NCBI GenBank assembly: GCA_003164715.1
Contig: PLTZ01000035.1
Location: 1-64,000 of the forward strand
Source of the DNA: Opitutaceae bacterium
Lineage (GTDB): Bacteria > Verrucomicrobiota > Verrucomicrobiia > Opitutales > Opitutaceae
Length of the DNA stretch: 64,000 nt
Reading direction: 5' to 3'
Below are positions 3,972 to 51,162 of the stretch, in pieces (the stretch's first letter is position 1; the number at the start of each line of letters is the position of its first letter). The position numbers and the translations under genes are program-made. A model generated the notes under the pieces. That model did no database searches and was not told the origin of the DNA. It saw only the letters and a list, made by a program, of their open reading frames with translations.

Positions 3972-5006
3972 TCATCCAACCGGCCTCAGGGAGGCGACTT
4001 GCGCCAGCAGGACGTCGCAGAGCGCGAGCAGGTGCTGGGTGGGCGGCAGCCCGGGCCATTCCGCAAGGGCCGCGCGCGCCGCCGACACCTCGTGGCGGAC
4101 GGCGCACTCGACCTGGTCAAACACGCCGAGTTCAAGCATCTGCTTCAGGCGCAGCGCGGGCTGCGCCGGCCGCTGCCCGCCGATCTCCTCCGCGAGGGCC
4201 GCCCGCTCGAAAGGCGGGAGCCTATCCATGAGCGCAAAGAGCGGCAGCGTCAGCTTGCCGCTCGCCAGGTCCGTCCCGAGCGTCTTGCCGATCTTGTCCT
4301 CGCGGCCGAAGAAGTCGGCAAGGTCGTCATAGATCTGGTAGGCGATTCCGAGGTGCCGGCCGAACCGGTCCGACGCCTCGACATATCCGGCCGCGGAGCC
4401 CGTGAGCCTCGCCCCGAGGAAGCACGACACGCGGAAGAGCTCGGCCGTCTTCAGGTCGATGATGCGGTGGTAGTCCGCCGGCGTCAGGTCGGTCGACCGC
4501 CTCCTTAGCGTCTGCACGGTCTCGCCCGCGCAGACCCGGCGGGTCGACTCGGACACCGCGGCGCAGACCTCGGTCGTCGGGAAATGGCTGGCAAGATGGA
4601 GCGCGTGTGCGAAGAGCGCGTCGCCGAGCAGGACGGCCGCGTTCGGGCCGAATTCGCGCGTCGCGGTCCTGCGGTTGCGCCTGACGTCGGCCGAATCCAT
4701 GATGTCGTCGTGCACAAGCGTCGCCAGGTGCACGAGCTCGACGACGGCCGCGGCGCGCACCAGGTCGGCCGAGACGGACCGCGGATCCTTCCACCCGCTC
4801 AGGAACACCAACGCGGGCCTGATGCGCTTTCCCGAGGTGTCGATGCAGTAGTTGACCATGGCGCGTATCTCCGGCTCGAACGACTCGAGCTGCGCCTGCA
4901 GGAACTCGTCGAGCGCCGCCATCTGCGGAGCCAGCATCGCAAAAACGCCGGCAAACGCGTGCGGTTTGCCGGCGGAAGGGATTTCGGTGCTTGGGGCCCT
5001 GGGCAT
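3972..5006 (-). CDS. Polyprenyl (trans-type) diphosphate synthase
   Basis: Adds isopentenyl diphosphate units to allylic diphosphates to make the long isoprenoid tails of quinones. The first Asp-rich motif appears as LVHDDIMDSADVRRNRRT and the second as YQIYDDLADFFG, with the N-terminal SGKRIRPALVF substrate-binding segment and a GKTLGTDLASGKLTLP segment after the second motif. With the ATG at 5006 the protein has 344 residues, as expected for octaprenyl/heptaprenyl synthases. Starts at 5045 or 4937 are also in frame; 5006 was chosen because related proteins carry a short extension before the first helix. It lies between the giant Ig-repeat gene (stop at 5090) and the sigma factor on the same strand. 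Chain length cannot be deduced. Confidence 0.88.
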   Translation of the reverse strand: MPRAPSTEIPSAGKPHAFAGVFAMLAPQMAALDEFLQAQLESFEPEIRAMVNYCIDTSGKRIRPALVFLSGWKDPRSVSADLVRAAAVVELVHLATLVHDDIMDSADVRRNRRTATREFGPNAAVLLGDALFAHALHLASHFPTTEVCAAVSESTRRVCAGETVQTLRRRSTDLTPADYHRIIDLKTAELFRVSCFLGARLTGSAAGYVEASDRFGRHLGIAYQIYDDLADFFGREDKIGKTLGTDLASGKLTLPLFALMDRLPPFERAALAEEIGGQRPAQPALRLKQMLELGVFDQVECAVRHEVSAARAALAEWPGLPPTQHLLALCDVLLAQVASLRPVG

Positions 5007-5089
5007 AGACCCGTGGACCCTAGCCCGAAATCGGGAAATCTCCACCCAATTGTCGCGCCAGGCGAAGACTCCCGGGTGCTTAGGTTAGA

Positions 5090-5905
5090 TCACGGAATCT
5101 CGTAGACCTCGACGAGCGCGGTGCCCGTGGCCGATCCCACGCCTGAGACAATCGCGGTGTAGGTCCCGGGCGCCAACACGGCAAGGATCGCGGAGTCGGC
5201 GCTATTGGCGGCGTACGTGAACGCTCCGGTGGACTTTTCGGCGGCCGCGACCAGCGCCGGGTCGTTGCCCGACTGCCATGAGAAATTCTCGCGGACGATC
5301 TGTTGTGTGGCGGAGTTGACGAGCTGCAGATGGGGCGAGGCCAACGGGTTGGCGACGCTGAACGCGGCCAATCCAGGTCCCGCCCCCCGAATCAGGAGCT
5401 TCTTTGGCGCCGTGCCGTTGATGCTGAACCCGGCTATCAAAACATTGGAGCCGGTGCCCACGCTTCCCCGTGTGGAAATATTGATGAGCTTCCTTGAGGT
5501 GAACGGCGCGTACGTGTCGAGGTCGTAAATCTCGGCGAGCGCGACGCCGCTTGCCCCGCCGACCCCGGTGATCTGCGCGGTGTAGGCGCCGGGAACAAAG
5601 GACCCGACAAGCGCGGAGTCGGCGCTTCCACTCGGCAGGGCAAACGCACCGACCTGGGCGTCCGCGCTGGAAACCGATGCCTCGTTTGTCGAATTGGAAT
5701 CCCAGCCGGTGTTCTGCGCGACGACGGTCGAGCCCGCGAAGACCTGCAGCTGTGTGGCTGAAATCGCGCCGGAAAGGCCGAATGTAGTGAGCGTCGGGCC
5801 GATCGCGCGGATCAGGAGCTGCTTGGGCGACGTGCCCCCGACAACAAATCCGGCTATGAGCGCGCCGCCGGAGCCAATCTGCGCGCGGGTGGAAATGTTC
5901 TTCAT
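5090..5905 (-). repeat. Two tandem copies of the shared C-terminal domain (Ig-repeat protein)
   Basis: Copy 1 is encoded at about 5496-5905 and copy 2 at about 5090-5495. Each begins with an (I)NISTR segment, continues LIAGF..(N/G)GT.PK.LLIR..GP.L, then contains a GAF element, DSA(L/I), PG.YTA and ends ALAEIYD (copy 1) or ALVEVYE (copy 2, at the stop codon). The same two-copy arrangement closes the NHL-repeat protein at 50326-51162. Confidence 0.85.
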
Positions 5906-8524
5906 CACGCCGTCACTGAACAATCCGCCCGACGCCTTGGCCGCGAGGATCGAGCCGCCGGCCGATCCTGACAGCGCTCCCGTGATGAAACCCGTCGACG
6001 GATCTATTTTGCCGGTGAGCGTATTGTTGCCCACCGTCGTGATCGTGAATGCGCCGGAGGAGTCGAGGCTGCCCTGACCAACGTCGGCAGATGCGCCCGA
6101 TGAGATGTACATCATCAGGCTGCCGTCGGCGCCGACGATTGCGGCGACCTGGCTCTCGGGCTGCCCGGACAGGCTGCCCGTGAAATAGCCCGACGAGACC
6201 GCCGTTGTGCCAGCCAGCGGCGCCGGACCGATGAACGTGGCCTGGCTCGCCGTCAGCGAGCCGCCGACCCCTGTCGAGGAGACGCTGCCCGTCAGGTTGC
6301 TGGTCGCGAAGGTGCCCCCTGAGCCAATCGGGATATCCGAGTAGAATGCCGTTGACCCGTTCGTGTTCGAGTGTCCGATGTAGACGCCAAAGGCGCCGTC
6401 CACCTGGGCAAAGGCGAAGCGCCCACCGTCCGTAAGACTTTGATATTGACCGAAATATACCGTTGTTCCCTGTCCGCCGACCGCCGGAAGCGCCTCAATG
6501 ACAACAGCGGGCGATGTCGTTGTCTCCCCCGCGTTGTCCTTGGCGACCGCGGTAATCGAGTAGATTCCCGCCGAGAGCGGCGTGAACGAGGTCGTGTAGG
6601 GCGGCGCGGTCACGGTCGCTATCAAGATGCCGTTCTCGAAGAACTGCACGCTCGAGATCGTGCCTGATGTGGCGGTTGCGTTCGCGCTTATCGTGACGCT
6701 CGAGGACACCGTGGTCGTGCCCCCAACCACGGGCGCCGTGAGGTTGACAATGGGCGGCGGCTCCGTGCTCACCGTCACGTTGGCGGTGTTGCTCGTTGTC
6801 ACGTTGCCGACATTGTCGGTCACCTGCGCATCTATGGCGTACACTCCAAGGTTCGTGGGCGTCCACGTGATGCTGTAGGGATACGCCGTAACCTTTCCGA
6901 GGGACGTGCCGCCGACGAAGAACTCGACCTGCTTCACGTTTCCAGGCGTATTCATCGCCTGTGCGCTCGCCATGATCGTGACCGGCGTGTTGACCACCAC
7001 GCTCGAGCCGTCCATCGGGGACGCCAACGAAATCGTGGGGGCCTTGCCGATGATGGTCGTCGTCGAGGAGCCGCCCAGGTTCACGCTCACCGTTACGGCT
7101 ACGGAAGTTGAGGTGAAACCGAGGTTGTCGGTCGCCTGCGCGGTCAAGAGGCTCGGAATGGGCTTCCCGGTGACCGGGTCGAGGTTCTGTTTCGGCACAA
7201 AGGAGACGGTATACTCATTCGGGGCGTTTCCGTCGGTGGCTGTGGCCTCGCCGACGAAATTGGTGTCCTGGAAGAACTGCACATTGGCTATGCCCACATT
7301 TGCGCCCGTTGAGTCTGTGTTGGTCGTGGTCGCGGTGGCTTCTATGGTCGCCTGGCCGTTCGACGGACCGCCGCCGGAAATCGTGCCGCCATCCGCGGGA
7401 TTGGTAATGGCCACCGAAGGCAGGGAGCCCACGATGACAGTCGTCGGCTGCGGCGTGAGCGTCGCCGTGGTGCTGGTCGTCGACGCGATCACGTTGTTCT
7501 TGTCGTCGTAGGCAAGCGCCGTGAGGTAGTACGTTCCCGTGACCGCAGGCTGCCACTTGAACGAGTACGGATAGTTCGCGTTCGTCCCGAAGAGCACGCC
7601 GTTGATGTAGAGCTCAACCTGGTCGATGTTGCCCTGGGGGCTTGCCGCGTTCACGATGACCGAGATGAACGCAGCCGAGTCCGCCGCATAGTCGGGGATC
7701 GGGATCGTGTCCGGCTGTGGCGGCCCGCCCGTAGTGAGGGGAGGCTTCATCGTCGGCGTACTGATGACGCAGGTGGGCAACCGGCCCACGTCCTCCGTCA
7801 TGGTGATGTTCTGAGTCCCGGAGGTCAGCGTCCCATCCGTCGTCCCATCCGCCTTGTAGGCGATCGCATTAATCTGGTTGACGTGCGTGCCATCGATCGG
7901 ATTGACCGACGGCGGCGTGTAGATGATGGAATACGGGTAGGTCCGGCTTGATCCCAGCAGCCCCGATTCGTCAAAAAAGTCGACCCTCGAGACGGCACCT
8001 ATCGACGTTGATGCCGCCGCCTGGATGACGACCGAGGAGCCGTACGGCAGGACCTCGTTCGGCGGAGGGCTCACGATCTCGATGCCGGTGCAGTAGAACT
8101 CGATTGCGATGGAGGTCGCGGTGTGGGCGCCGTCCGACGCCGTCACCGAGAAGAAATACACGCCCGGCTGCGGCGGCCTCCAGCTGAGTCCGTAATTGAA
8201 CGCAAACACCGGCGTGGGCGTGGCCTGTCCGATGGAAATACCGTTTATGAAGAAGGTGTACGTAAAGCCGGACGCCGGAGCCGTGCCGGTCGCAAGCGCC
8301 CAGAGCGTCAGCTGTGACCCAAACAGCGCGTTGCCGCCGTTCAGAAGGTTACCGCTGCTCGTGGGCCCGGTGCCCGCCTCATTCTGGTTCGATCCGTACG
8401 CCGGAACCCCGTTCACGTCGATCTGGGTCAGGGATACCGTAAGCACCGGCAGCTGCTGCGCGAACGCCGCAGGGGCAAATAGGCCGATCGCTAAGGCCGA
8501 CAAAAACCGAATTTTATTCTTCAT
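5090..8524 (-). CDS. Giant secreted Ig-repeat protein with tandem C-terminal domain, last gene of the pil-like operon
   Basis: A 1144-residue exported protein. A clear signal peptide (MKNKIRFLSALAIGLF ending AAFAQ) argues for the ATG at 8524. An in-frame ATG at 8566 overlaps the secretin stop as ATGA and could instead be used, adding 14 basic residues. The N-terminal two thirds carry five or six Ig-like repeats, marked by VDFFDESGLLG, VELYINGVLFG, VQFFQDTNFVG, VEFFVGGTSLG and VQFFENGILIA, each followed by a YPYS/PPYT..W.P strand pattern. A beta-rich spacer beginning YFGQYQSLTDGG follows, then two tandem copies of a domain of about 130 residues that also ends the protein at 48022-51162. It ends VEVYEIP. 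Location directly behind the secretin suggests it is exported by, or attached to, that machinery; this is inference. The function could be adhesion or pilus-associated. Confidence 0.8.
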   Translation of the reverse strand: MKNKIRFLSALAIGLFAPAAFAQQLPVLTVSLTQIDVNGVPAYGSNQNEAGTGPTSSGNLLNGGNALFGSQLTLWALATGTAPASGFTYTFFINGISIGQATPTPVFAFNYGLSWRPPQPGVYFFSVTASDGAHTATSIAIEFYCTGIEIVSPPPNEVLPYGSSVVIQAAASTSIGAVSRVDFFDESGLLGSSRTYPYSIIYTPPSVNPIDGTHVNQINAIAYKADGTTDGTLTSGTQNITMTEDVGRLPTCVISTPTMKPPLTTGGPPQPDTIPIPDYAADSAAFISVIVNAASPQGNIDQVELYINGVLFGTNANYPYSFKWQPAVTGTYYLTALAYDDKNNVIASTTSTTATLTPQPTTVIVGSLPSVAITNPADGGTISGGGPSNGQATIEATATTTNTDSTGANVGIANVQFFQDTNFVGEATATDGNAPNEYTVSFVPKQNLDPVTGKPIPSLLTAQATDNLGFTSTSVAVTVSVNLGGSSTTTIIGKAPTISLASPMDGSSVVVNTPVTIMASAQAMNTPGNVKQVEFFVGGTSLGKVTAYPYSITWTPTNLGVYAIDAQVTDNVGNVTTSNTANVTVSTEPPPIVNLTAPVVGGTTTVSSSVTISANATATSGTISSVQFFENGILIATVTAPPYTTSFTPLSAGIYSITAVAKDNAGETTTSPAVVIEALPAVGGQGTTVYFGQYQSLTDGGRFAFAQVDGAFGVYIGHSNTNGSTAFYSDIPIGSGGTFATSNLTGSVSSTGVGGSLTASQATFIGPAPLAGTTAVSSGYFTGSLSGQPESQVAAIVGADGSLMMYISSGASADVGQGSLDSSGAFTITTVGNNTLTGKIDPSTGFITGALSGSAGGSILAAKASGGLFSDGVMKNISTRAQIGSGGALIAGFVVGGTSPKQLLIRAIGPTLTTFGLSGAISATQLQVFAGSTVVAQNTGWDSNSTNEASVSSADAQVGAFALPSGSADSALVGSFVPGAYTAQITGVGGASGVALAEIYDLDTYAPFTSRKLINISTRGSVGTGSNVLIAGFSINGTAPKKLLIRGAGPGLAAFSVANPLASPHLQLVNSATQQIVRENFSWQSGNDPALVAAAEKSTGAFTYAANSADSAILAVLAPGTYTAIVSGVGSATGTALVEVYEIP

Positions 8525-8562: not shown

Positions 8563-10380
8563 TCATTGCATGCCTTTCCCTGACGGCTTCGCGGACTCGT
8601 CAATGAACGGATCCGAGCCGTCCCGGTATCCTGGAAGGTCCGTGCGCTTCAAATTGAACTGCCGCATTTCGGTGGAATTGAAGATCTGCTCGGCCGGCGC
8701 GCCTTCCGCGCTGATGGTCTTCGCGGTGATGAAGATCACGAGGTTGTCGGCCGTGTTGGTGTTGTTCTTCTGCTTGAAGAGGTAGCCGATAAGCGGGATG
8801 TCCCCGAGGAGCGGCACCTTGTTGATCGCGGTGTTGAAGTTCGTGCTGATCAGGCCGCCGATGCCCATCGTGTAGCCGTCCTTGAGCGACACCTGGGTGA
8901 CCGCCTTGCGGGTGCCGATGATCGGGATCGAGGCGCCACTCGCGCCGCCGAAGCTCGTCGTGCCCTGGTTCTGGCTCACCTCCGGCTGCAGCGTCAGCTT
9001 GATGAAGCCGCGCGCGTTCACCTGCGGCGTCACCTTCAGGATGATGCCGATGTCCTTGTAGATGAAGCCCGACACCTCAAACGTGCCCGTCTGCTGGTTG
9101 AAGGTGTAGCTCGGGATCGGGTACTGCTGTCCGACGTTGATCGACGCCTCGGTGTTGTTCAGGGTCACGATCGTCGGGTTCGACACGATCTTCGCGTTGT
9201 TGAGCTGCTGGAGGGCCGAGAGGACGAGCCTGAACTGGTCGGACGAGAAGACGGCTGAAATCCCGTTGATCGCCTGCCCCTGGGACTGGGCCGACTGCGT
9301 GAGATTGAGGGCGTTGTTGACCGAGCCGGTGACGGCCGACGTCACCGCCGTCGTGACGGTGTTGCTGATCGTGCTCGAGATGCCGCTGTTCGTCCCGGTG
9401 CTAGAAACGTTCGACGGCGTGCCGTTGGTCGTGGTGCTCGTCGTGCTGTTCGTCGAGCCGTTTGTGAGCGACGTGGCGTTGCTGCCGTTCGTTCCGGAGT
9501 TGTTTCCGGTCGACGTTCCGCTCGAGTTGCCGCTCGTGCCGGTCACGCCGTTGCTGACCGTGTTGCCGTAGTTGTTCGTGTAGGTGTAGAGCCCGGAGGT
9601 CCCGGGGTTGGCGGTGATGCCAAACCCGCTCAGCGAGCTCCAGTTGACCCCGATGTTCTTGATGTCGTTGTTCGATATCTCGACGAACTTGGACTCGATC
9701 ATCACCTGGTCTGTCGGCCGGTCGAGCTGCTCGATCACCGGGCGGATGCGCTTCATCCTCGAGGGCCGCTCGGTGATCACGAGGCTGTTGGTGCGCCCGT
9801 CGATGACAATCTTGCCGCCGGCGGTTGTGTCCACGAGTGAGGAGAGCGTCGGCTGGATGTCCGCGGCCTTCGCGTAGTTGATCACGAAGATCTCCGTCGA
9901 CACCGGCTCCTGCGTGAGGCTCTCGTTGCTCACGACCTTGATGATGTTGCCGTCCTCGATGAACGAGTAGCCGACCGGCGTCAGCACGACCTGGAAGATC
10001 TGGCGCCACGTCACGTCGTGGAGCTTGACCGAGGTCTTTCCCTGGAGGGTCTCGGGGATCACGATGTTCAGGTCGAACAGCTCGGCCACGTTGCGCAGGA
10101 TGTTGCGGATCTCCTCGTCGGGGAAGTCGACCGAGAGGGTGTCGTGGCCCTTGGTGGCCGTGGCGCTGCCGGACGACGGGGCCTCCTTGACCGAGACGTC
10201 GTCGGGGCTGGGGGCCGCCAGCGCGGCGCCGGGCGCAGGCGCCGCGGCGGCCTGAGCGGTCGCTGTTGCCGTGTCCGGCGGCGGCGCCTTCGCCGGTGCG
10301 GCCTTGGCCTGTGCGTTGACCAGCGATGGCGTGGCTAGCAATGCCGCAATGGCTGCTATAAGGAAAATGCGAGTTCTCAT
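8563..10380 (-). CDS. pilQ: Outer-membrane secretin (PilQ/GspD-type) with a Ser/Thr/Asn-rich insert
   Basis: A 605-residue precursor with a signal peptide (MRTRIFLIAAIAALL ending VNAQ) that should form the multimeric outer-membrane channel of a type IV pilus or type II secretion-like machine. After an Ala/Pro-rich linker come a secretin/TonB short N-terminal domain (VDFPDEEIRNILRNVAELF), an N1-type domain (INYAKAADIQPTL to LVITERPSRMKRI) and the C-terminal secretin barrel: VSNPTIVTLNNTEASI, VGQQYPIPSY, the KVTPQV segment and VPLLGDIPLIGYLFK. Between the N1-type domain and the barrel lies about 100 residues of low-complexity Ser/Thr/Asn/Gly (roughly residues 260-358), which is unusual. The start overlaps the stop of the PilP-like gene as ATGA. 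No pilotin or ATPase gene is nearby. Confidence 0.92.
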   Translation of the reverse strand: MRTRIFLIAAIAALLATPSLVNAQAKAAPAKAPPPDTATATAQAAAAPAPGAALAAPSPDDVSVKEAPSSGSATATKGHDTLSVDFPDEEIRNILRNVAELFDLNIVIPETLQGKTSVKLHDVTWRQIFQVVLTPVGYSFIEDGNIIKVVSNESLTQEPVSTEIFVINYAKAADIQPTLSSLVDTTAGGKIVIDGRTNSLVITERPSRMKRIRPVIEQLDRPTDQVMIESKFVEISNNDIKNIGVNWSSLSGFGITANPGTSGLYTYTNNYGNTVSNGVTGTSGNSSGTSTGNNSGTNGSNATSLTNGSTNSTTSTTTNGTPSNVSSTGTNSGISSTISNTVTTAVTSAVTGSVNNALNLTQSAQSQGQAINGISAVFSSDQFRLVLSALQQLNNAKIVSNPTIVTLNNTEASINVGQQYPIPSYTFNQQTGTFEVSGFIYKDIGIILKVTPQVNARGFIKLTLQPEVSQNQGTTSFGGASGASIPIIGTRKAVTQVSLKDGYTMGIGGLISTNFNTAINKVPLLGDIPLIGYLFKQKNNTNTADNLVIFITAKTISAEGAPAEQIFNSTEMRQFNLKRTDLPGYRDGSDPFIDESAKPSGKGMQ

Positions 10381-10922
10381 GGTGACTTTCCTGATTTTAT
10401 TGGCCTGGTGATTTCGTCGCTTCTGTAACGCAGTGTGAAGTTTGTGCCGTCTATTTGCGTTAACTCAAGATCGTAGTCGTTGCCCTTATACGTAACGGTG
10501 AAGTGGGTGCCCGTTTTGACATATCTTTTCCCAAACATGAGCAGGGGCTGGCCCCCCATGTAGACGGTCCCTGAGGGTCTGACCTTGGCAACGATCTCCT
10601 CGAGGAGTTGGTGGTCGGAGGGCGGAGCGGGCGCCGACGGGTTCTGCGCGTTAGCGAGCCTCGCTGCGGCGGCGGCCGCGGCGGCCTCCTCAGCATCCGT
10701 CAGGTCGAAGCCCGGGGGTGCAAAGGGAAGGCTGAGCGCCTCGGGCAGGGGCGGCACGGCCCTCAGTTTCGCTAGCGCCACGGCCCTCTCGACCGACGCC
10801 TTCCTCTTTTCCGGGGGGGAGATGTCCGACTCGATCCGCGCGCTGGCGCGGGGAGCCGTCACGCCCAAAACGGCGATGAGCGCCCCGAGGGCGGCAGGCA
10901 GCATGTGAGGCGCGCGTCTCAT
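10377..10922 (-). CDS. PilP-position periplasmic protein of the pil-like operon
   Basis: A 181-residue protein with an N-terminal signal sequence (MRRAPHMLPAALGALIAVLG to APRASA). An Ala-rich linker leads to a small C-terminal beta domain (VRPSGTVYMGGQPLLMFGKRY, then VKTGTHFTVTYKGNDYDLELT). The start at 10922 overlaps the PilO-like stop as ATGA and its own stop overlaps the secretin start in the same way, so it is embedded in the operon. Its position, size and architecture match PilP, the lipoprotein linking the inner-membrane PilNO complex to the secretin. I see no lipobox cysteine and no convincing sequence-level PilP signature, so the assignment rests mainly on position. Confidence 0.6.
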   Translation of the reverse strand: MRRAPHMLPAALGALIAVLGVTAPRASARIESDISPPEKRKASVERAVALAKLRAVPPLPEALSLPFAPPGFDLTDAEEAAAAAAAARLANAQNPSAPAPPSDHQLLEEIVAKVRPSGTVYMGGQPLLMFGKRYVKTGTHFTVTYKGNDYDLELTQIDGTNFTLRYRSDEITRPIKSGKSP

Positions 10923-11488
10923 TGGGTTCCCAGGAGCTGCAGCGAGATTGTCATCAGCATCGGGCCTCCGCGGATGTCCGTCGCAACCGGGCGAAAGTTG
11001 CATGTGAGCACGCGGCAGTAGTGCTCGCCGTCCTCGAGCCTGCGGAGCACGTCGATCAGCTGGGCGTAGTCGCCCTGCGCCGATAGCGTGAATCCGACGG
11101 GTGTGTAGAACGTCTTCGGCGCCTTCTTGTCGGGCACCGGCACCGGGATCTGCACCGGGGTGAGCTTCGCGCCCGTCGCGCTCTCAAGCTGGTAGAAATA
11201 CTGGAGGTTCTCGGCCAGCTGGCCTACGCGTACCAACCTGTTGTTGATCGCCTCGTTGGAGGCGACGATCGCCGCGTGCTGCTCCTTGAGGGAGGGGGGC
11301 TGATTGGCGTCCTCGATGTTGGCCGCCAGGAGCTCTCCCTGCTGGGTCCTCTGCGCGAGCACCTTCTCGGCGTCCGGGAGCACGTCGCTGCGATAGTACA
11401 GGGTGGCGCCGATCGCGATGCTCACGACCACGCAGACAACCGGGATCACGTTCTTGCGAAGGAAGGCGACCAGTTCCTCGTTGCTCAT
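10919..11488 (-). CDS. pilO: PilO-like inner-membrane assembly protein
   Basis: A 189-residue protein with a short cytoplasmic start, one membrane segment (NVIPVVCVVVSIAIGATLYY), a coiled-coil-prone stretch and a C-terminal ferredoxin-like domain (FYTPVGFTLSAQGDYAQLID, then VLRRLEDGEHYCRVL). This is the PilO layout; PilO dimerises with PilN in the periplasm as part of the alignment complex of type IV pili. It starts at an ATGA overlap with the PilN-like gene and ends with one into the PilP-position gene. Sequence similarity in this family is always weak; the call combines topology, size and order. Confidence 0.78.
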   Translation of the reverse strand: MSNEELVAFLRKNVIPVVCVVVSIAIGATLYYRSDVLPDAEKVLAQRTQQGELLAANIEDANQPPSLKEQHAAIVASNEAINNRLVRVGQLAENLQYFYQLESATGAKLTPVQIPVPVPDKKAPKTFYTPVGFTLSAQGDYAQLIDVLRRLEDGEHYCRVLTCNFRPVATDIRGGPMLMTISLQLLGTQ

Positions 11489-12114
11489 GTCTTCTTCGCC
11501 CCCTTCTCCTTCTTGTAGTCGCAGAAGATCTCGATCACGAGGCGGCCCGTGGTCGCGTTGCGGCGCATGGTGACGAGGTTCACGTCGGCGAACATCGGCC
11601 CGAGCATCTTGTCGGTGCGCAGGAGCTTCTCATAGGCCGACGCGTCGCCGCTCGCCCGGTCCGGGGCGCCCTTAACCGTCGCGCGGATCGCCAATCCGTT
11701 GTCCCTGAAATCGAGAAGGTCGAAGGCGATCTTCTTCGGGGTGATCTGCCCCAGCCTGAGGATGATGGACGAGAGCACGGGCTTCGAGGCGACGAAATCC
11801 GCCGCCTCGCTCACCTTGGCCTCCTCCTGCTTGAAGTCCTGGTAGAGCGCGACGGCATCCGCGCTCTCCTTCTTCTGCTTGTCTATCTGGTGCTGCCAAT
11901 ATGCGACCTGCTTGTTGACCTCGTGGAGCTTCCATTCCTGGATCCCGAGGTAGAGCGCCAGGGCGATCGCCACGGACATGGCCACGCCGTTGATGAAGAA
12001 CGCCGTCCGCACGACCTTCGTGTCGGGCAGGTTCTCGGCGATCCGCAGGTTGGGGTGCCACGGCGGCACCACCACGACGGCGCCGTCACTTTTTTTCGGT
12101 AGGGTGAGCGCCAT
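11485..12114 (-). CDS. pilN: PilN-like inner-membrane assembly protein
   Basis: A 209-residue bitopic protein. A cytoplasmic N-terminus carries PPWHPNLRIAENLPDTKVVR, where PilN proteins carry the short motif that binds PilM. It is followed by a transmembrane helix (AFFINGVAMSVAIALALYLG), a coiled coil (KQVAYWQHQIDKQKKESA) and a periplasmic domain. Its ATG lies 29 bp inside the 3' end of the PilM-like gene, and its stop overlaps the PilO start as ATGA. Together these four overlaps imply one tightly coupled transcript. Confidence 0.78.
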   Translation of the reverse strand: MALTLPKKSDGAVVVVPPWHPNLRIAENLPDTKVVRTAFFINGVAMSVAIALALYLGIQEWKLHEVNKQVAYWQHQIDKQKKESADAVALYQDFKQEEAKVSEAADFVASKPVLSSIILRLGQITPKKIAFDLLDFRDNGLAIRATVKGAPDRASGDASAYEKLLRTDKMLGPMFADVNLVTMRRNATTGRLVIEIFCDYKKEKGAKKT

Positions 12115-13138
12115 CTTGGTTGTTGTACTGCACCATCAGGCTCATGAGCCCGAACCAGCGGGATTCCCCCGCGGTTTTCGTGAGCGCGTCGGGGACGACG
12201 ACGCGCCGGGACCTGAGCCACGGGATCGGGTCGAACTTCAGGGTTGCGATGCCGAGCGAGCTCGCCAGCGATCCCTCGAGCCATGCGAGCTTCGGCGAAA
12301 GTTGGATGCAGATCACCTGGCCCACGGACTGGCCCGTCTGGACCTCGTAGAAGCCGATGGACGACTGGAGCTCCTTCAGCAGCCGCTTGATCAGCAGCGG
12401 ACCCATCCCAGTGAAATCGAACGTATTGGACCGGAATAGCTTCCTCGCCGACTCCTCATCCTTGAGCCCCAGCTCCTTCTGCACGACCGGGACCATGGCC
12501 TCCAGCCCCTGCGGGATGGGCCTCGAGGCCTCCACACCGTTGCTCGAGATGATGAAGCTGTGCGTGGTGTCGTTGCCGACGTCGAGGACCAGTGTCGGGG
12601 TTTTCGACTTCTCGAAGGTGAGGCAGTCGACCAGGGCGCCAAGGGTGGCGACGCTTCCCAATTCGAGGCGCTCGGGGAAAATCCCCGCGTTGAGCAGAGA
12701 CTCCTGCGAGGCGACGATGTCCTCGTTCGGGGCGCCGCAGAAGATGACCTCCTTCTGGACGGCCTTGCTCAGGTCGTAGTCGACGCCGTCCGTTGCGCTG
12801 ATCATCGCCACCGTGTACTTGTCCTGCTCGATCCGGAGCTGCTGGTTGAAGACGTCGGCCATGTAGTTGGCCTCCTTCATCTTCTTGATCTCCAGGGTAT
12901 GCCTGCGGACGATGCGCCTTGGGGGATAAACCCCTACCACGGCGTGCATATAGCCACTCGGGGGCTTCCTCGGCTGGAGGTGCTTTAGCGTGTCCGCGAT
13001 GGCGGCCTCGTCGCCCAGCGCGCACTCCTTGAGCTCCTCAACCTCCATGGGCGCCCCCGAAGAGGTCGTCCGGGCGAACAACACCGAGTTCTCGTTCCAT
13101 TCGACGAAGAATCCCTTCGTCTTTTTAGAAAAGAGCAT
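12086..13138 (-). CDS. pilM: PilM-like actin-fold cytoplasmic protein, first gene of the pil-like operon
   Basis: A 350-residue actin-like ATPase-fold protein. The nucleotide-binding phosphate segment is visible as TLVLDVGNDTTHSFIISSNG, with an N-terminal FFVEWNENSVLFARTT strand pair. PilM binds the cytoplasmic tail of PilN and helps organise the pilus assembly platform at the inner membrane. It opens a minus-strand series pilM-N-O-P-Q plus the Ig-repeat gene. Upstream, a TATACT hexamer on the minus strand at 13225-13230 could be a -10 element, but the -35 partner at the right spacing (TCGCCT) is poor. Classical type IV pilus ATPases (PilB/PilT) and pilins are not in this window. Confidence 0.82.
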   Translation of the reverse strand: MLFSKKTKGFFVEWNENSVLFARTTSSGAPMEVEELKECALGDEAAIADTLKHLQPRKPPSGYMHAVVGVYPPRRIVRRHTLEIKKMKEANYMADVFNQQLRIEQDKYTVAMISATDGVDYDLSKAVQKEVIFCGAPNEDIVASQESLLNAGIFPERLELGSVATLGALVDCLTFEKSKTPTLVLDVGNDTTHSFIISSNGVEASRPIPQGLEAMVPVVQKELGLKDEESARKLFRSNTFDFTGMGPLLIKRLLKELQSSIGFYEVQTGQSVGQVICIQLSPKLAWLEGSLASSLGIATLKFDPIPWLRSRRVVVPDALTKTAGESRWFGLMSLMVQYNNQDGAHPTEKK

Positions 13139-13515: not shown

Positions 13516-16500
13516 TCAGCCGGGCTCCCCCGCGTTCGTCCACGCTCCGGCCACGGTCGAGTAGATCCAGAGCCTCACCCTAGAGCCGGGGAAAAACGCA
13601 GCCGCTGAGGCCCCGTAGGCCGCAAGCTGCCCCGAATACTCGGCCGCGAGCCTGCGCAGCAGGGATGCGTCGTCCTCCCCCGGCCCGCGGCGGTTCGTCT
13701 TCCAGTCGACGATCCAGAGCTCGCCGGCCCCCGGGTCGTGCAGGACAAGGTCGATGACGCCGTCGATCCAGCTGTCGGGCGAGAGCGGCGCGAAGATCCC
13801 GGCCTCGGCAAGGCGCGTCCACCGCGGCTCGCGCATGATGCGCCAGGGCTCGCTGGCCAGCAGGCGCTCCCACTCCTCCCCCGCCCTGCCCGCGAAGCCC
13901 CGCTCAAGGGCCCGCGCCTTTGCCGCCGCCCCGTGCGCCGCCACGGCCGCGTCGTCCCCGGACCACGGGACGAACTCGAGCGTCTCGTGCCACCAGACGC
14001 CGAATTCGAGAGGGTCGGGCCCGTCCCGGACGGGCGCCGGGGCGTCCAGGGACGACTCGTGGCGCGCGGCCCGCGCCGCGTCGGGAAGCGCCGCGAGCTC
14101 GTGCGGAAGGACCCGCTTCGGGAAGGGTGGCGCCGGGGACGCCGCGGCCGGTTCGGAAGGGGCCCGGGCCGCGCCCGCGCGCTTTCGCCGGGAGGACCCG
14201 CGCGCCTTTCTTGCGCGCGGGATCGGGTCGAGGGCCGCCGGGTCGAGGCCCCAGAATTCCGCGAAGCTGTCGCGCTCCGGCGCTCCGGCCGACCACGGGA
14301 TAACGAGCGCCGATTTCGCGCGGGTCAGCGTGACGTAGAGAAGGCGGACGTGCTCCCGCAGCTTCGCGCGCTCAAGCGAATCGCGCGTTTCCCGCCCGAT
14401 GCTGTCGCTGTCAAAGACGACGCGGGGGTCGCCGTCGCGCCCGGCGACCAGCCTCAGGCCCGAGGGCCCCTTGGACGGGATCATGCGCCACAGTCCGACC
14501 GGAATCACCACGGGCCATTCCAGGCCCTTTGCGGAATGTGACGTGATCAGGTTGATCGAGTCGCTCGCGGGGCGCCCCGATGCCCTGAAGTCGTCCAAGG
14601 CAAAGAGGAGCATCCGGAGCCACGCGCGCGGACCGCCGCCGCCGAGGCTCAGCTCGGCGGCCTGGGCGAGCAGGCGTGCGAGTTCGTCCTCCAGTCCCCC
14701 CTCGGGGTCCACGAGACGCGCCTTCGCGGCGAGGCCGCACGCGGCGGCGAGCTCGGGCGCGAAGCGGTCCAGGGACTCCCCTTCCATATCCGCGCGGCTG
14801 ATGAAGGGACCCAGCAGCTCGAGCGCTTCCCTCACCCCCGCGGCGTAGTCGCCGGGCTCGTCCCAGCGCAGCCCCCCGCGCCCCCCGAGCGCGTCGGCGA
14901 TCTGGGCGTCGCTTACCGAGAAGACCTCCCTCAGCACGCCGGCCCACTCGAACGCATTTTCGGGATCGCACACGACCGCAAGCAGGCCGCAGATCCACGC
15001 ATAGACCGGGTTGTCCCCGTTGCGGTTGCGCCTCGTCTGGAGCGCAGTCTTCAGGCCCTCCGCGTCGAACTGGTCGCGGATGATCTGCAGCCACGCGTTT
15101 CGCGGAGCCACGATGCAGACGTCGCCCCACGCGGCCGCGCCGACCGACCCGGGTCCGCCCGCCTTGAGAAAGCGCACGATCTGGCCGGCCTCGAGCGCCA
15201 GCTTCCGGTCGGCGACGTGCCGCCGGCCCGCGACTGGCTCCTCGGCGATCGGCAGCCGCCATGCGCCCCCCTCTATGTTCTCGGGGCCCGGCACGAGCGG
15301 CTCGTAGGGCACCTGTAGGAAGCGCGCCGGCGCGCCGTCCGACGGCGGGACGCCGAAGTTGAAGTCGCGCCCGGCCCCGAACGCCGCTTCAAGCGTCCCG
15401 TTGAGCAGGCGCACCACGCGGCGCGGCGCCCGGAACGTGACGCCGAAGGTGAGCCGCTCGCCCCCGTTGCCCGCCTCGAACGCGGCCACGTGGTCCTGGA
15501 AGTTGCGGATGTCGACCCGCGTCGAATAGATTCCCTGCTGCGCGTCCCCCACCATGCAAAAGTGCCCGGGCCTTGGGCCGACGCCGCCCTTCCAGGGCCA
15601 CGTCCGCAACGGCGCCCCCTGCGGGCGCGCGATCTCGACCAGCACGGAGAACTGCTTCGGGTCCGTGTCCTGGGCCTCGTCCAGGATCACCCGCCATCCC
15701 TCGGCCCGGATCCGCTCGAGCATCGGGGTGTCCCCAAGGACCGCGAGGGCCGTCTCGATCTGGTCGGCATAGGTCTGGATGCCGCGATCGAAGCGCCACG
15801 AGCGGTACCGCAGCGAAAGCTCCGCGGCCAGCACGCCGCCCGTGTCGGCGAGCCAGTCCTTGAGCGGCGCGAAGAGCCGCCGGTAGAGCTCCCGGATCCC
15901 CGCCGCCGAGCCCTCCGGCAACGCCAGGGGGAGCGGGTCCCTCTCCTCGGCGAACCGCCTCAGCCATTCCCTCGCCGCCGCCTTGTTGCGCGCGAGGGCG
16001 TCCGCCCCGGGCCCCCTGCGCGCCGCCGCCGCCAGGATCTCCTCAAGGACGGCCCGCGAGGGTGCCGGCGCCTGCGGGACGGGCCGGCGCCGCGCAAGCC
16101 GCAGGGCCGTCTCCCCGTCAAGGCCGCGCGCCAGGCTGAAGATCTGGTCCAGCGACGCGTGGCGCAGGAAGGCCGCAACCTGCTCGGCGCCCAGGGAGTC
16201 AAACGTCATCCGGTCCTGCTCGAGGAACTCCTGCCAGTGGGCGTCGTCGTCGTCCTCGACCAGGGCGGGGTTAAGGTGCACGCCGAGCAGGCTGCCGTGC
16301 CGTCGCGCCAGCATTAGGCAGAAGCTGTGGATCGTCCCGAAGAACGCCCTCTCGAGGCGGCCGAGCGGCTCGACATCCGCCCGTCCCTCCTCGGCCATCC
16401 GCCGCAGCAGCACCGCGCGCGCCCGCTGCTCGATCTGCGCCGCAGCCTTCTTCGTGTACGTGACGACGGTCGTCCGCATGAGCATCTCCGCGCCGGTGTC

Positions 16501-16638
16501 GGAGAGCGCCATGGCCGCGAGCCTCTCGGAAATCGCCGTGGTCTTCCCGGAGCCCGCGTTCGCGACCACGGCGAGGTTGACCGACCAGTCCCGGGTGAAC
16601 CGGTCGCGGGCGGGCTGGTCGGACGGGAGCCTAGGCAT
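13516..16638 (-). CDS. addA: AddA-type UvrD-like helicase/nuclease
   Basis: Large subunit of an AddAB/RexAB-type helicase-nuclease that resects double-strand breaks for RecA. The 1040-residue protein has a Walker A motif ([16 protein letters not shown], about residues 25-40), a helicase Walker B motif ([16 protein letters not shown]), motif-VI-like text ([16 protein letters not shown]) and a C-terminal PD-(D/E)XK nuclease centre ([10 protein letters not shown] and [10 protein letters not shown]), the architecture of AddA. The ATG at 16638 ([14 protein letters not shown]) overlaps the addB stop by 8 bp; an upstream start at 16656 would overlap more. It is shorter than Bacillus AddA (about 1230 residues) but all key motifs appear intact. 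Confidence 0.88.
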
Positions 16639-36637: not shown

Positions 36638-38281
36638 CTAATGGGATGGATGTGCGGTTATCGCGGGCTGGAACGAAGGCAGCGTCGCGCTCAACACGGA
36701 CTGGATCCTCGCCAAACCCGCGTCCTCTCCGTCGTCGGCGCCCGTCTGCAGGAGAATGTATGCCCACCGGGTCGCGCGCCCAAGAAAAATGCGATCCCAA
36801 GCGTCACAAAACATCATCTCAAACTGCGAATGCACAATCCGGCCGTCGCCCACAAACCAATATGCGACCAATTCCGGGACCAACCGCCGGGCACCACCCG
36901 GCCCTGCAAGCTCACGGTGAACCTTGAGGACGGTCCCATCAAAGTCTGAGCGGGCCCGGCCCGGATAACTAAAGCGGTGCGTCGATGAACCGTCGATCGT
37001 CCATCCCTGGCCCACAAGACAAAGTTCAGGGCGGTGGATCGAGGAACGGTCGCGTCCGCTAAGCACAATCGATAGAAGCACCCGGCGCCCCGGTGTATCC
37101 AAGTTCACATAGAGCCTCCTGGAGAATCCCGTATCGGGCGGCAGAATGGTGCGCTCGACCTTAGTGGGCTCAACATGGCGCCCAATCCATTCCGATCCGA
37201 TGAAAGCTGGCAGCTCCGCTGGATTCGCGCCGCCGCCTGCTAATATCACGCCGGGGCTCTCACCGGCCGAGACGGACAAGCGGTGCGAAAGGAGTGCCGC
37301 TTCAACAACTACGGAAAGTATGACGGCCGCAGCGATCGATGCCGAACCAAGTCCCGCGCGTGGTCCGGGACTTTTCACGCGCAAGGAATCTACATTACCG
37401 GTCGCCCAATCGGGCCTGAAGCGGGCGATGGCCTCCGCGATGGCTATCACGCCCACCACAACGATCATGAAGACAACAAATCCCATAGCCTCGTGCACTC
37501 GGTCGCCCCAGGCCTGGCCACCCCACTGGGCAGCGATTACGATAATCAGAATTCTCAGCACATTCCCTAGATATACCAGTGGCATGCTGAGGAGCAGTAC
37601 CGCACAGCGAAGCCAAGCGGGTCTTAACCGCAGGTAGCTGATAAAGAGCGAAAGGGCAGCAAGCGCCATCAACGAACGAATGCCGGAACATGCAGCGGCC
37701 ACGTCGTATTGATAGCGGCCATCCGGGGAGATGAGCTGTGTTCCGTTTCGTAGAACAGCTATTCCAAGGAGGTTTGCAATTTGTCCACCGGCTCGGACGA
37801 CCCACATCCGCAGCCAGAATCCCAACGTGTCGAGGGCATTGACAGGGATGGCGAATGCCAAGAACGCCACCGGGAACGCAGAAGCCCGCCCCCATCTTCG
37901 GCCTCCGCCCAGTACCAGGACCCCCCAGATGCACAAAAGCAGCGCTGCGATGGACAATCGGGGCTGCTGGGCGACAAAACCCAGCGCGTGGAGCAGGAGG
38001 CCCAAAGCAAGGGCGGCTGCGGACTTGATGCCGTCCGACTGCTGATCGCCGTTGTCCCTCCGGAGATTGCGCCATAGCAAAAAGACGCTGAGAGCGAGGA
38101 CGAGCCATGCGTGCTCGTTCTCGGAGTCGGGATTCACCCATTGGAATCCCCACCAATAAAACAAGGAGTCCGAGGCGATGTAGCCATGCGTCGCGTTCCC
38201 CCAGAACTGGAACAGGGCGACGCACGCACCACCGCAAAGAATCGCATACAAGGGCCGCGGCCCGAGATTCTCCACCTTCAC
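36638..38281 (-). CDS. Exosortase fused to an EpsI domain
   Basis: A 547-residue protein. The N-terminal part has about eight membrane helices and the exosortase catalytic set: Cys in DVAAACSGIRSL, Arg in LGNVLRILIIV and His in DRVHEAMGF. The C-terminal third is the periplasmic EpsI domain, with SIVLSGRDRSSIHRPELCL and VGQGWTID. Exosortases cleave and anchor proteins bearing PEP-CTERM-like C-terminal signals and usually sit in exopolysaccharide clusters. Here the gene is coupled (ATGA overlap at 38278-38281) to the glycosyltransferase in front of it. I found no PEP-CTERM tail in any protein of this window, so its substrates must be elsewhere. Confidence 0.9.
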   Translation of the reverse strand: MKVENLGPRPLYAILCGGACVALFQFWGNATHGYIASDSLFYWWGFQWVNPDSENEHAWLVLALSVFLLWRNLRRDNGDQQSDGIKSAAALALGLLLHALGFVAQQPRLSIAALLLCIWGVLVLGGGRRWGRASAFPVAFLAFAIPVNALDTLGFWLRMWVVRAGGQIANLLGIAVLRNGTQLISPDGRYQYDVAAACSGIRSLMALAALSLFISYLRLRPAWLRCAVLLLSMPLVYLGNVLRILIIVIAAQWGGQAWGDRVHEAMGFVVFMIVVVGVIAIAEAIARFRPDWATGNVDSLRVKSPGPRAGLGSASIAAAVILSVVVEAALLSHRLSVSAGESPGVILAGGGANPAELPAFIGSEWIGRHVEPTKVERTILPPDTGFSRRLYVNLDTPGRRVLLSIVLSGRDRSSIHRPELCLVGQGWTIDGSSTHRFSYPGRARSDFDGTVLKVHRELAGPGGARRLVPELVAYWFVGDGRIVHSQFEMMFCDAWDRIFLGRATRWAYILLQTGADDGEDAGLARIQSVLSATLPSFQPAITAHPSH

Positions 38282-48021: not shown

Positions 48022-51000
48022 ATGAGCCGTTCCCGTCTCGTCTCACCGAGCAGCCTACCCCTTGCGGCCCTCGCCGCTCTTTTCCTGGGCCCGGGCCGTC
48101 CTTTGACCGCGCAAACGGTCTACACGTCCTATGACTTCGTCACCTTGGCGGGCACGGCGAACGCCACGGGCAGCGCGGACGGCAAGGGCCCGGCCGCGCA
48201 GTTCAATGGGCCCGAGGGCGTTGCCGTCGACGGGAGCGGTAACGTCTACGTCGCCGACCGCTACAACAACATCATTCGAAAGATCGCCCAGGGGGGCGTC
48301 GTGACCACCCTGGCGGGCACGGCGGGCGTCTCCGGCAGCGCGGATGGCACGGGTGCCGCCGCTCAGTTCAAGGGCCCGATCGGCATTGCGGTGGACGCGA
48401 GCGGCACTGTTTACGTCGCCGACACCGGCAATTTCACGGTTCGCAAGATCACGGCGGGCGGGGTGGTAACGACCCTCGCCGGCACGGCGCGCACCGCGGG
48501 CTCGGCCGACGGCACGGGCCCCGCCGCACAATTCGAGGCACCCCTTTGCGTTGCGGTGGACGGGAGCGGCAACGTCTATGTTACCGACAGCTTAAGCAAC
48601 ACTATCCGCAAGATCACGCCCGGGGGCGTGACCTCGACCTTGGCGGGCACGGCGGACGCCAGGGGCAGCGCGGACGGCACGGGTCCGGCCGCGCAGTTTA
48701 GTTCACCCTCCGGAATCGCGGTGGACGGAGACGGGAACGTCTATGTCGCCGACATGTACAATTGCACGATCCGCAAGATCACGCCCGACGGCGTGACAAC
48801 GACCGTGGCGGGAACGCCGGGCAAGGCGGGCTCCTCCGACGGCATAGGGTCCGCCGCGTTGTTCTTCGAGCCCTTTGGCGTGGCGGCGGACGCGAGCGGC
48901 AATCTCTTTGTCACGACCCCTGAGCTCAATATCGTCCAGAAGATCACGCCCGGGAGAGTCGTGACCACCATTGCGGGCATTGTGGCATATCGCGGAAGCG
49001 CGGACGGGACAGGGCCGGCCGCGCAATTTGAGTATCCCGATGGCGTCGCCGTGGACGGAAGTGGAAACGTGTATGTCGCGGATTCCAATGCCGGCACGGT
49101 TCGAACCGGATTCCCCGTAGTCCAGTCCCCCGCCACGGTGAGCCTGGGTAACCTGAACCAAAGGTACGACGGCACCGCGAAGAGCGTATCGGTCGTCACG
49201 TCTCCCGCCGGTCTCGCGACCCTTGTGCTCTACGGCGGCAGTCCCACCGCGCCAACGGGCGTCGGCGAGTACAGCGTCTTTGCGACCATCGTGGATCCAG
49301 CCTACACCGGCTCCGCAACCGCCGCCCTCACGATCGGTCCGGGGTTCACCACGCAGACGCCCACCATAATGAGGCACTCGCAGCCGGGCGGAAGCTTCCT
49401 GTGGGCCATCGCGCCCGGCCCCGCCGGCCTTGTGACGGTGGGCACCGGCGGCACGATTCTTAGCTCACCGGATGGCGTGACCTGGATGCGCCGCGACTCG
49501 GGCACCACCAACTGGCTCGTGGGCGTCACCTACGGGGCCGGCCAATACGCCGCGGTGGGCGACAATGGAACCGTGCTGCTCTCCGCCGACGGGGCCACCT
49601 GGCTCAGCGTGGCGCAGTCGGCCACGGCGGAGCGGCTCAACAACGTGATTTATGCCGCCGGCCAGTACGTCGCCGTCGGCGAAGGGGGCGCCGTCATCAC
49701 CTCGCCGGATGGCCGCACGTGGACGGCGCGCAGCTCGGGCGTGACCGGTTGGCTCCGCGGGCTGACCTACGTAGGCCCGCTGAGCTACCAGTACGGGTAT
49801 TTTACGGATTATTCCACCGGAACGATGCCGGCACGGTTTGTGGCTTCAGGTCAAGGGGGTGCGATCATCAGCTCGCAGGACGGAATCACGTGGAGCAACG
49901 AGGGCTCCCTGCATGGCAACAGCCCGTCGATCATCGGAGAGGACCTGGAGGCGCTCGTGACCACCCAATCCGCGGAATTCGCTGCGGTCGGAGCCGACGG
50001 GACCGTGGTCAACAATCAGTGGATTCAAATGGACGGAACGGCTGCCCTTGCCGGGCTCATGCCCCCCCTGGAATACATCGACGTCTCCTCGATCTACATC
50101 CCGGTCGATTTTCGCGGCCTGGTTCAGGGCGCAAGCGCCCTTTTTGCGACGGGCGAGAACGGCACGATCGCGACCGTTTCCGTCAATAATGGCTATGGCA
50201 TCGGGCCCTGGGAGCAGGTCCCCTCCGGCACGACCGCGGACTTGGTCGGCGGCGTTGCGATCGGCGACTCCGTCTTTGTCGTCGGCGATGGCGAGACCAT
50301 TCTCCAGCTCATGGCGCCCTACGACAGCCGGCTGATCAACCTGTCGTGCCGCGCACAGGTGGGGGCGGGCGCGAATGTCCTGATCGCCGGATTCGTTGTC
50401 GGCGGAAAGGCAACGGCAGGCGCGAACCCCCTGCTGATTCGCGGTTCGGGGCCCGCCCTCTCACCCCTGGGAGTACCGGGTACGCTTCCCGATCCCGAGC
50501 TCCAGCTCTACGCCACTGCCTCGGGGAACAGCCTGTTGGCGTCGAACACCGGCTGGGGAGGCACGATGGAACTCTCGAATGCGGCGGCGGAATTGGGCGC
50601 CTTCGCGTGGGCCGACCCCAAGAGCCATGACACGGCGCTTCTCGAGACCCTTCCGATCGGCTCCTTCACAGCGAATATCTCCGGGGAGTCGGGGGACGCC
50701 GGAGTCGCCCTGGCGGAGATCTACGACGCCACGGCCGGCGCAAGCATCGGCCCGGCGACCCCGAGGCTCGTCAACCTTTCGGCGCGCTCCCTAGTGGCAC
50801 CCGGGGCGAACATCCTGATCGCAGGATTTGTGGTGGGGGGATCGACTCCGAAGACGGTCCTCATTCGCGCCTCGGGCCCGGCGCTCGCTCCCTTTGGCGT
50901 CACCGGAACGCTTCCCGACCCCAAGCTGCAGATCTTTGGCCCGGTATCGGGAAGCCCTCCCCTGGCGACGAACACCGGCTGGGGTGGCGACGCGCAAATA

Positions 51001-51162
51001 ACGACGGCGGCGTCCTGGGTCGGCGCGTTTTCCTGGGGGGGTTCGGCAACTCCGGACTCCGCGGTCCTCATCACGCTTCCGCCGGGGCCGTATACGGCGG
51101 AGGTATCGGGGGCAAGCGGCGATGGCGGCGTGGCCCTCGTCGAGGTTTACGAAGTGCAGTGA
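48022..51162 (+). CDS. Secreted NHL-repeat protein with MBG, BNR-like and tandem C-terminal domains
   Basis: A 1046-residue exported protein. The ATG at 48022 gives a signal peptide (MSRSRLVSPSSLPLAALAAL ending LTAQ). Residues 41 to about 365 are six NHL repeats of exactly 55 residues (core GVAVDGSGNVYVAD..N..IRKI). There follow an MBG-type Ig-like domain (YDGTAKSVSVVTSPAG to ATAALTI) and a BNR/propeller-like section with GTILSSPDGVTW, GTVLLSADGATW and GAVITSPDGRTW. Two tandem C-terminal domains (about 50326-51162) match those of the pil-operon Ig protein and end VEVYEVQ. It probably works outside the cell, perhaps in binding or surface structure; no catalytic motif is evident. Confidence 0.85.
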   Translation: MSRSRLVSPSSLPLAALAALFLGPGRPLTAQTVYTSYDFVTLAGTANATGSADGKGPAAQFNGPEGVAVDGSGNVYVADRYNNIIRKIAQGGVVTTLAGTAGVSGSADGTGAAAQFKGPIGIAVDASGTVYVADTGNFTVRKITAGGVVTTLAGTARTAGSADGTGPAAQFEAPLCVAVDGSGNVYVTDSLSNTIRKITPGGVTSTLAGTADARGSADGTGPAAQFSSPSGIAVDGDGNVYVADMYNCTIRKITPDGVTTTVAGTPGKAGSSDGIGSAALFFEPFGVAADASGNLFVTTPELNIVQKITPGRVVTTIAGIVAYRGSADGTGPAAQFEYPDGVAVDGSGNVYVADSNAGTVRTGFPVVQSPATVSLGNLNQRYDGTAKSVSVVTSPAGLATLVLYGGSPTAPTGVGEYSVFATIVDPAYTGSATAALTIGPGFTTQTPTIMRHSQPGGSFLWAIAPGPAGLVTVGTGGTILSSPDGVTWMRRDSGTTNWLVGVTYGAGQYAAVGDNGTVLLSADGATWLSVAQSATAERLNNVIYAAGQYVAVGEGGAVITSPDGRTWTARSSGVTGWLRGLTYVGPLSYQYGYFTDYSTGTMPARFVASGQGGAIISSQDGITWSNEGSLHGNSPSIIGEDLEALVTTQSAEFAAVGADGTVVNNQWIQMDGTAALAGLMPPLEYIDVSSIYIPVDFRGLVQGASALFATGENGTIATVSVNNGYGIGPWEQVPSGTTADLVGGVAIGDSVFVVGDGETILQLMAPYDSRLINLSCRAQVGAGANVLIAGFVVGGKATAGANPLLIRGSGPALSPLGVPGTLPDPELQLYATASGNSLLASNTGWGGTMELSNAAAELGAFAWADPKSHDTALLETLPIGSFTANISGESGDAGVALAEIYDATAGASIGPATPRLVNLSARSLVAPGANILIAGFVVGGSTPKTVLIRASGPALAPFGVTGTLPDPKLQIFGPVSGSPPLATNTGWGGDAQITTAASWVGAFSWGGSATPDSAVLITLPPGPYTAEVSGASGDGGVALVEVYEVQ
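48142..49110 (+). repeat. Six tandem 165-bp NHL-repeat units inside a gene
   Basis: Each unit encodes 55 residues beginning T(L/V/I)AG and containing GSADG(T)GPAAQF and VAVDGSGNVYVAD. Repeats 1 to 5 are exactly 55 residues each when counted; the sixth runs into the next domain. Confidence 0.85.
50326..51162 (+). repeat. Two tandem copies of the shared C-terminal domain (NHL protein)
   Basis: Copy 1 is at about 50326-50757 and copy 2 at about 50758-51159. Both open RL(I/V)NLS.R, continue NVLIAGFVVGG or NILIAGFVVGG, then LIR.SGPAL, TLPDP.LQ, NTGWGG and GAF.W. They end GVALAEIYD and GVALVEVYE respectively. They correspond unit for unit to the pair at 5090-5905. Confidence 0.85.

Follow-up and report, generated by a model that had tools for sequence, protein, structure and literature searches.

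Module A, a domain of about 132 residues that closes two otherwise unrelated secreted proteins of the window (the whole stretch of 64,000 nucleotides analysed here) in two tandem copies, is probably a previously unnamed way to retain proteins at the cell surface, because unrelated exported proteins share the pair by the dozen and relatives have either a recognised kind of surface sorting tag or another module at the same point. Our preferred reading, to which we assign a probability of roughly 55%, is that module A represents an exchangeable folded surface-retention tag doing the job of the rhombosortase-processed GlyGly-CTERM tail for the same cargo. This reading rests on four observations: the pair recurs at the protein end, tails are exchanged at a sharply defined junction, module A and GlyGly-CTERM-like tails are distributed inversely, and no other anchor is recognisable. 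The two proteins, P0001 and P0002, and the genes around the former are located as follows:

3975..5045, minus strand: polyprenyl synthetase, used as synteny marker; it directly follows PilQ in several genomes without a P0001 gene
5093..8524, minus strand: P0001, a signal peptide followed by five Big_7 Ig domains, a further beta-rich region and the module A pair, directly after the PilQ-like secretin gene (translation, Pfam)
5093..5500, minus strand: second module A copy (D2) of P0001, ending directly at the stop codon (5090-5092)
5516..5917, minus strand: module A copy 1 (D1) of P0001 (alignment of copies)
8566..10380, minus strand: PilQ-like secretin (PF00263, PF03958), neighbour of P0001 (Pfam, synteny)
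10380..13138, minus strand: pilP/O/N/M-like genes of the same operon, assigned by position and family-wide synteny with only a weak T2SSM_b Pfam match
48022..51159, plus strand: P0002, with signal peptide, NHL repeats, an MBG_3 domain, more repeats and the module A pair (translation, Pfam)
about 50326..50733, plus strand: module A copy 1 (D1) of P0002 (alignment of copies)
50758..51159, plus strand: second module A copy (D2) of P0002, ending directly at the stop codon (51160-51162)

The translated ends, ALVEVYEIP for P0001 (window 5093-8524, minus) and ALVEVYEVQ for P0002 (window 48022-51159, plus), each directly followed by the stop codon, bear out the preliminary description, according to which both proteins stop right after VEVYE plus two residues. 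Its proposal that a common tandem domain terminates two otherwise unrelated proteins is equally upheld: the four copies align over 142 columns, 35 of which are invariant, with identities of 42-47% to the first copy, and the remaining parts differ, with five Big_7 Ig domains in P0001 versus NHL repeats and one MBG_3 domain in P0002 (Pfam). The likeness reflects homology rather than chance, since a single copy used as query retrieved 57 further genomic matches, of which 56 reach E <=1.1e-9. The last 270 residues of both proteins match nothing in Pfam or NCBIfam, and neither phmmer nor a profile search recovered sequence relatives of module A in the PDB. A comparison of 57 copies with Pfam gave no convincing match; PPC is not among the 17 weak or chance families listed.

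The host genome of the window (G000, 3.79 Mb), judged from related genomes an Opitutaceae MAG, contains 58 places matched by one copy as query (itself and the 57 others) and 59 matched by the profile. Among its open frames 31 proteins carry module A, 26 of them with two full copies, and in 30 of the 31 the distance from the last copy to the stop codon is 0-16 residues. The same arrangement prevails in other Opitutia, where module A lies <=4 residues from the end in 87 of 89 proteins with a closed end and 79 of the 89 have two copies. One of the two exceptions is explained by an ambiguous base and a frameshift; the other (L171) has a Laminin_G_3 domain after the pair. In addition, three proteins, one each in G000 (L046), G015 (L292) and G183 (L068), carry the pair at the N-terminus. 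In L046 (G000:C2), the sole non-terminal case of the host genome, it directly follows the signal peptide ahead of CHRD and DUF1800 domains. The loci of these N-terminal pairs, all near the signal peptide and belonging to three genera, are L046:6875-10354, L292:3486-6194 and L068:2070-3401. The expectation that the domain is always C-terminal hence nearly holds, and the frequent internal placement that had been named as an argument against a sorting signal was found in part, as four non-terminal architectures exist, yet they are rare. That module A is not always terminal (L046, L292, L068, L171) is an observation against the retention reading. The three N-terminal and one internal occurrences make a strictly C-terminal cleavage signal less likely, and the N-terminal copies suggest a binding domain whose function does not depend on which end it occupies.

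The partners of module A in the host genome comprise Ig domains (15 proteins), NHL repeats (11), other propellers, GH44 and arylsulfotransferase-like domains. A signal-peptide-like start is present in all 27 of its module A proteins with a complete N-terminus (24 detected by script, three by reading further in), and a simple screen of 99 module A proteins revealed neither a convincing lipobox nor, outside the beta domains, any TM segment. Copy numbers reach 89 per genome (G008). The loci recorded in a separate scan of named genomes all belong to Opitutaceae, Opitutae/Opitutia or Verrucomicrobia MAGs, and G039, a member of the same class, is the only module-A-rich genome outside the family in a phylum-wide profile scan; the single profile match in G137 is weak and falls on a PPC-like stretch. 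Absent from Pfam and NCBIfam, module A marks a large share of the exported proteome in soil Opitutaceae. Its two copies separate by position, with the nearest neighbour stemming from the same position in 200 of 216 copies. D1 and D2 thus represent distinct lineages, and the pair moves as a unit. Recent gene conversion among the copies was considered and dropped, since their average identity is only about 50%.

The bodies of these proteins recur in relatives with other ends. In the syntenic G015 ortholog of P0001 the body is kept, the module A pair is absent and another module, module B, stands in its place; P0001 stays homologous to it up to residue 865, which corresponds to residue 1027 in the ortholog, while module A starts at 870 in P0001 and module B at about 1024 in the ortholog. 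Module B is a recurrent C-terminal module of ~260 residues in G015 (L258-L291, L215:7162-11037) that lacks a convincing Pfam match. It has 47 matches in G015 and none in 25 other genomes searched, it occurs in about 38 proteins, and most of its 39 frames stop 0-2 residues after it. Modules A and B are both present in G015; they have no detectable sequence similarity, and none of 39 frames carries them together. Nine module B protein bodies, including GH44 and S8 enzymes, align with the bodies of module A proteins to <=30 residues of both junctions, the best pair with up to 52% identity over 1132 residues. Eight proteins with GlyGly-CTERM-like tails behave likewise, their bodies aligning to <=30 aa of both junctions, and the swapped bodies of the two groups, NHL proteins included, show 31-52% identity over 173-1132 aa. 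The NHL-body homologs in genomes with zero or two module A copies mostly end with GGGGGAPS-W, a hydrophobic (TM) stretch and arginines; one such tail scored 14.2 bits against the NCBIfam GlyGly-CTERM model, just below its cut-off of 15.5 bits. Two further NHL homologs, L335:4007-8239 (G163) and L337:1549-4416 (G013), end in a third C-terminal type. This region consists of ADPDGDGVPNLFEY... followed by a beta-rich stretch that closes with ...FLRLVVE.

The tail swap amounts to a natural experiment, in which the same enzyme or propeller is found with a GlyGly-CTERM-like tail, module A or module B, and makes the function directly testable. It suggests that sorting signals are exchangeable wholesale within one bacterial family. 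The 'choice-of-anchor' concept of NCBIfam describes one body with different anchors in different species; its models name the bodies, whereas module A would count among the anchors and is itself absent from NCBIfam. As a tentative extension, Opitutaceae might possess their own family of folded C-terminal sorting modules, with A and B among them and perhaps more, which are lineage-specific, evolve fast and replace each other as well as protease-processed tails on the same cargo, each with its own undescribed surface receptor or translocon.

GlyGly-CTERM (TIGR03501, with its rhombosortase TIGR03902) resembles module A as a C-terminal tail on many unrelated exported proteins per genome, and the two occur on shared cargo bodies, joined at the same position. 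However, GlyGly-CTERM spans about 22 residues, has a single TM helix and a basic end and needs an intramembrane protease, whereas module A is a folded pair of 270 residues that has no TM segment and is abundant where rhombosortase is missing. With a profile built from module-A-poor genomes, which divergent tails may escape, GlyGly-CTERM-like tails were detected in 10 of 34 genomes, namely in one of 19 module-A-rich versus nine of 15 module-A-poor genomes (Fisher p 0.0015, ancestry ignored). Rhombosortase exceeds its cut-off in 5/16 module-A-rich versus 12/15 module-A-poor genomes (Fisher p 0.011, ancestry ignored), and the five module-A-rich genomes that retain it show that the replacement is incomplete. 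Within the genus of the window, module A is missing from G011 alone, which is also the sole carrier of rhombosortase among the ten genomes tested; the protease (TIGR03902) is above cut-off in none of the nine module-A-bearing genomes, and the tail profile found no match in 12 such genomes. A similar contrast separates the relatives G166, which is rich in module A and devoid of GlyGly-CTERM-like tails, and G016, which has ten tails and no module A. A tree of a syntenic gene block shows that module A was gained or lost several times, and the pattern is therefore not the outcome of a single event. In G086, G101, G145, G178, G192 and G016 a GlyGly-CTERM-like tail is encoded within about 1 kb of the rhombosortase gene; such an adjacent protease-target arrangement has been described (PMC3237569). 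The paper that defined rhombosortase in 2011 also noted GlyGly-CTERM tail exchange within one family and listed Opitutus terrae among the hosts (PMC3237569).

The cargo proteins are mosaics with freely shuffled Ig, NHL and propeller domains, as would be expected if module A were no more than a widespread structural terminus of such secreted proteins, spread by domain shuffling and devoid of any sorting role. We regard this explanation as very improbable: it predicts frequent internal placement, which is seen in very few proteins, its junction partners would not be a known sorting-signal type and a second recurrent C-terminal module, and the distributions of module A and GlyGly-CTERM-like tails would not be inverse.

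The AlphaFold2 model of the module A pair consists of two confident beta-sandwiches (pLDDT 92.1, pTM 0.87), for which the tandem collagen-binding domain of ColG (5iku) is the best Foldseek match (E 7.6e-8). The whole-pair model reached Z scores of only up to 7.3 in the structural comparison, and a single-domain model (pLDDT 93.0) was needed. The latter matches the PPC domain of a Bacillus collagenase (5sv5) with a Foldseek probability of 1.00 and a TMt of 0.69 (VIA Z 9.5, rmsd 2.2, 93 residues), and the ColG/ColH collagen-binding and PPC structures as a group at a VIA Z of about 9.5 with an rmsd of 2.2-2.4 over 92-96 residues. Module A is hence predicted to adopt a beta-sandwich fold like that of PPC and the ColG collagen-binding domain. 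It shares with PPC (PF04151) and ColG/ColH the sandwich itself (Z 9.5 to 5sv5 and 1nqj/5iku) and the C-terminal position on secreted proteins, and with ColG the tandem arrangement; it differs from these structures in being about 30 residues longer, in its sequence (11-16% identity) and in having no link to peptidases. The PF04151 profile matches none of the 57 copies.

PPC-like domains are known matrix or substrate binders, and such binding would equally account for finding them on secreted proteins. Module A might accordingly act as the collagen-binding domains of clostridial collagenases do and bind an outside substrate or matrix (a plant polymer, a biofilm glycan or a protein), with the proteins free or polymer-bound rather than kept on their own cell. 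The closest single-domain structural matches (Foldseek probability 1.00) and the hydrolases among the cargo (GH44, S8) agree with this scenario, which we nevertheless consider unlikely: most of the cargo consists of Ig and beta-propeller mosaics without a common substrate, the tight C-terminal placement is unexpected for a simple substrate-binding domain, and the same bodies occur elsewhere with a GlyGly-CTERM-like tail, a type known to retain proteins on the surface of the cell that makes them. A common fold is by itself no proof of function.

The C-terminal domain of the type IX secretion system (T9SS CTD, Por secretion tail) is likewise a folded domain that closes dozens of unrelated secreted proteins within one lineage. 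Module A resembles it in all these respects, but it differs by the absence of a sequence match, the tandem pair and the occasional N-terminal placement. The lineage-specific expansion of a stop-flush domain on many unrelated exported proteins corresponds to the behaviour of the T9SS CTD, and the pair travels as an old unit (same-position nearest neighbour in 200/216), which would fit a signal for a dedicated, undescribed outer-membrane translocation and attachment machine, perhaps cleaved before D1. The N-terminal and internal copies argue against such a signal, no conserved cleavage-like motif was evident in the D1 linkers inspected by eye, and T9SS CTD models match neither P0001 and P0002 (Pfam, NCBIfam) nor the 57 copies (Pfam). 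SprA had no match in 16 genomes, in a search in which no positive control gave a match either. We rate the dedicated machine as improbable. A different precedent is provided by SLH domains, which hold many exported proteins on the envelope through tandem copies at either end. By analogy, module A is tandem, mostly C-terminal, in some cases N-terminal and located on exported proteins; it is unlike SLH in its beta-sandwich fold, and the SLH profile (PF00395) matches neither P0001 and P0002 nor the 57 copies.

Of the sorting or anchoring function originally proposed, the near-constant C-terminal place, the exported mosaics without another recognisable anchor and the sharp tail swaps speak in its favour; the suggested tie to the PilMNOPQ secretin did not stand. 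An Ig-repeat ortholog with a module A pair follows PilQ in seven further genomes (G002, G005, G008, G018, G044, G115, G183), and the contig of G003 ends before the corresponding position. However, pilMNOPQ is present in eight genomes with zero module A copies (G013, G016, G071, G086, G101, G145, G163, G178), and in four genomes of the window's genus with 29-49 copies (G001, G006, G009, G012) no close PilQ was found. A secretin partnership was therefore rejected as a requirement. In several genomes without module A the polyprenyl synthase gene lies immediately after PilQ. The PilQ-like secretin is retained throughout the family irrespective of module A and hence represents context rather than a part of the module. 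Upstream of the pil operon, the window harbors adjacent UvrD-helicase/PD-(D/E)XK and PD-(D/E)XK genes (AddAB-like; 13519-19525, minus).

A link with exosortase was rejected as well, since exosortase is present in 30/31 genomes regardless of module A. The window itself contains an exosortase (PF09721) gene at 36638-38281 on the minus strand, with the match at 37433-38164. PEP-CTERM motifs are lacking in module A proteins, and the three PEP-CTERM matches of the host genome are located elsewhere. An exchange between PEP-CTERM and module A was dismissed: both coexist in G015, G044, G115 and G166, although PEP-CTERM counts are low (0-9) in the genus of the window, and the four genomes preclude a clean inverse pattern.

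Surface retention of secreted proteins in Verrucomicrobiota is to our knowledge largely undescribed, and a literature search retrieved no paper on a module of this kind. A T2SS substrate of Vibrio cholerae that normally stays on the surface is released once its GlyGly-CTERM is lost (PMC6219818), and the tail gives membrane association, with secretion depending on a separate signal (PMC13393428). As the Vibrio tail keeps its substrate on the surface, the same bodies equipped with module A should need retention. The tail swap, this known role and the N-terminal copies favour a non-covalent mode of surface retention. In the proposed sequence of events, the cargo would be exported via its N-terminal signal peptide and pass the outer membrane through a secretin, probably that of the T2SS. 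The terminal tandem of PPC-like beta-sandwiches would then retain it at the cell surface, and the most likely mode is non-covalent attachment to a component of the envelope, for instance a glycan. Some secretin is present in 31/31 genomes tested, and most of them have one that lies in a 700-800-residue frame; judged by size, we guess that these frames are T2SS-like.

A module A remnant with an internal stop codon is located at G000:C71:5683-5799, and a frame of 222 aa (L045:3697-4362) comprises only part of D1 plus D2; gene decay or assembly error is the likely cause in both cases. Some module A proteins, such as L033 (G000:C87) and L035 (G000:C11), exhibit a Gly-rich linker before D1, TPTPTPTPPPGGGGGG-TARLIN, which resembles the linker before GlyGly-CTERM-like tails and is perhaps a relic of the replaced tail.
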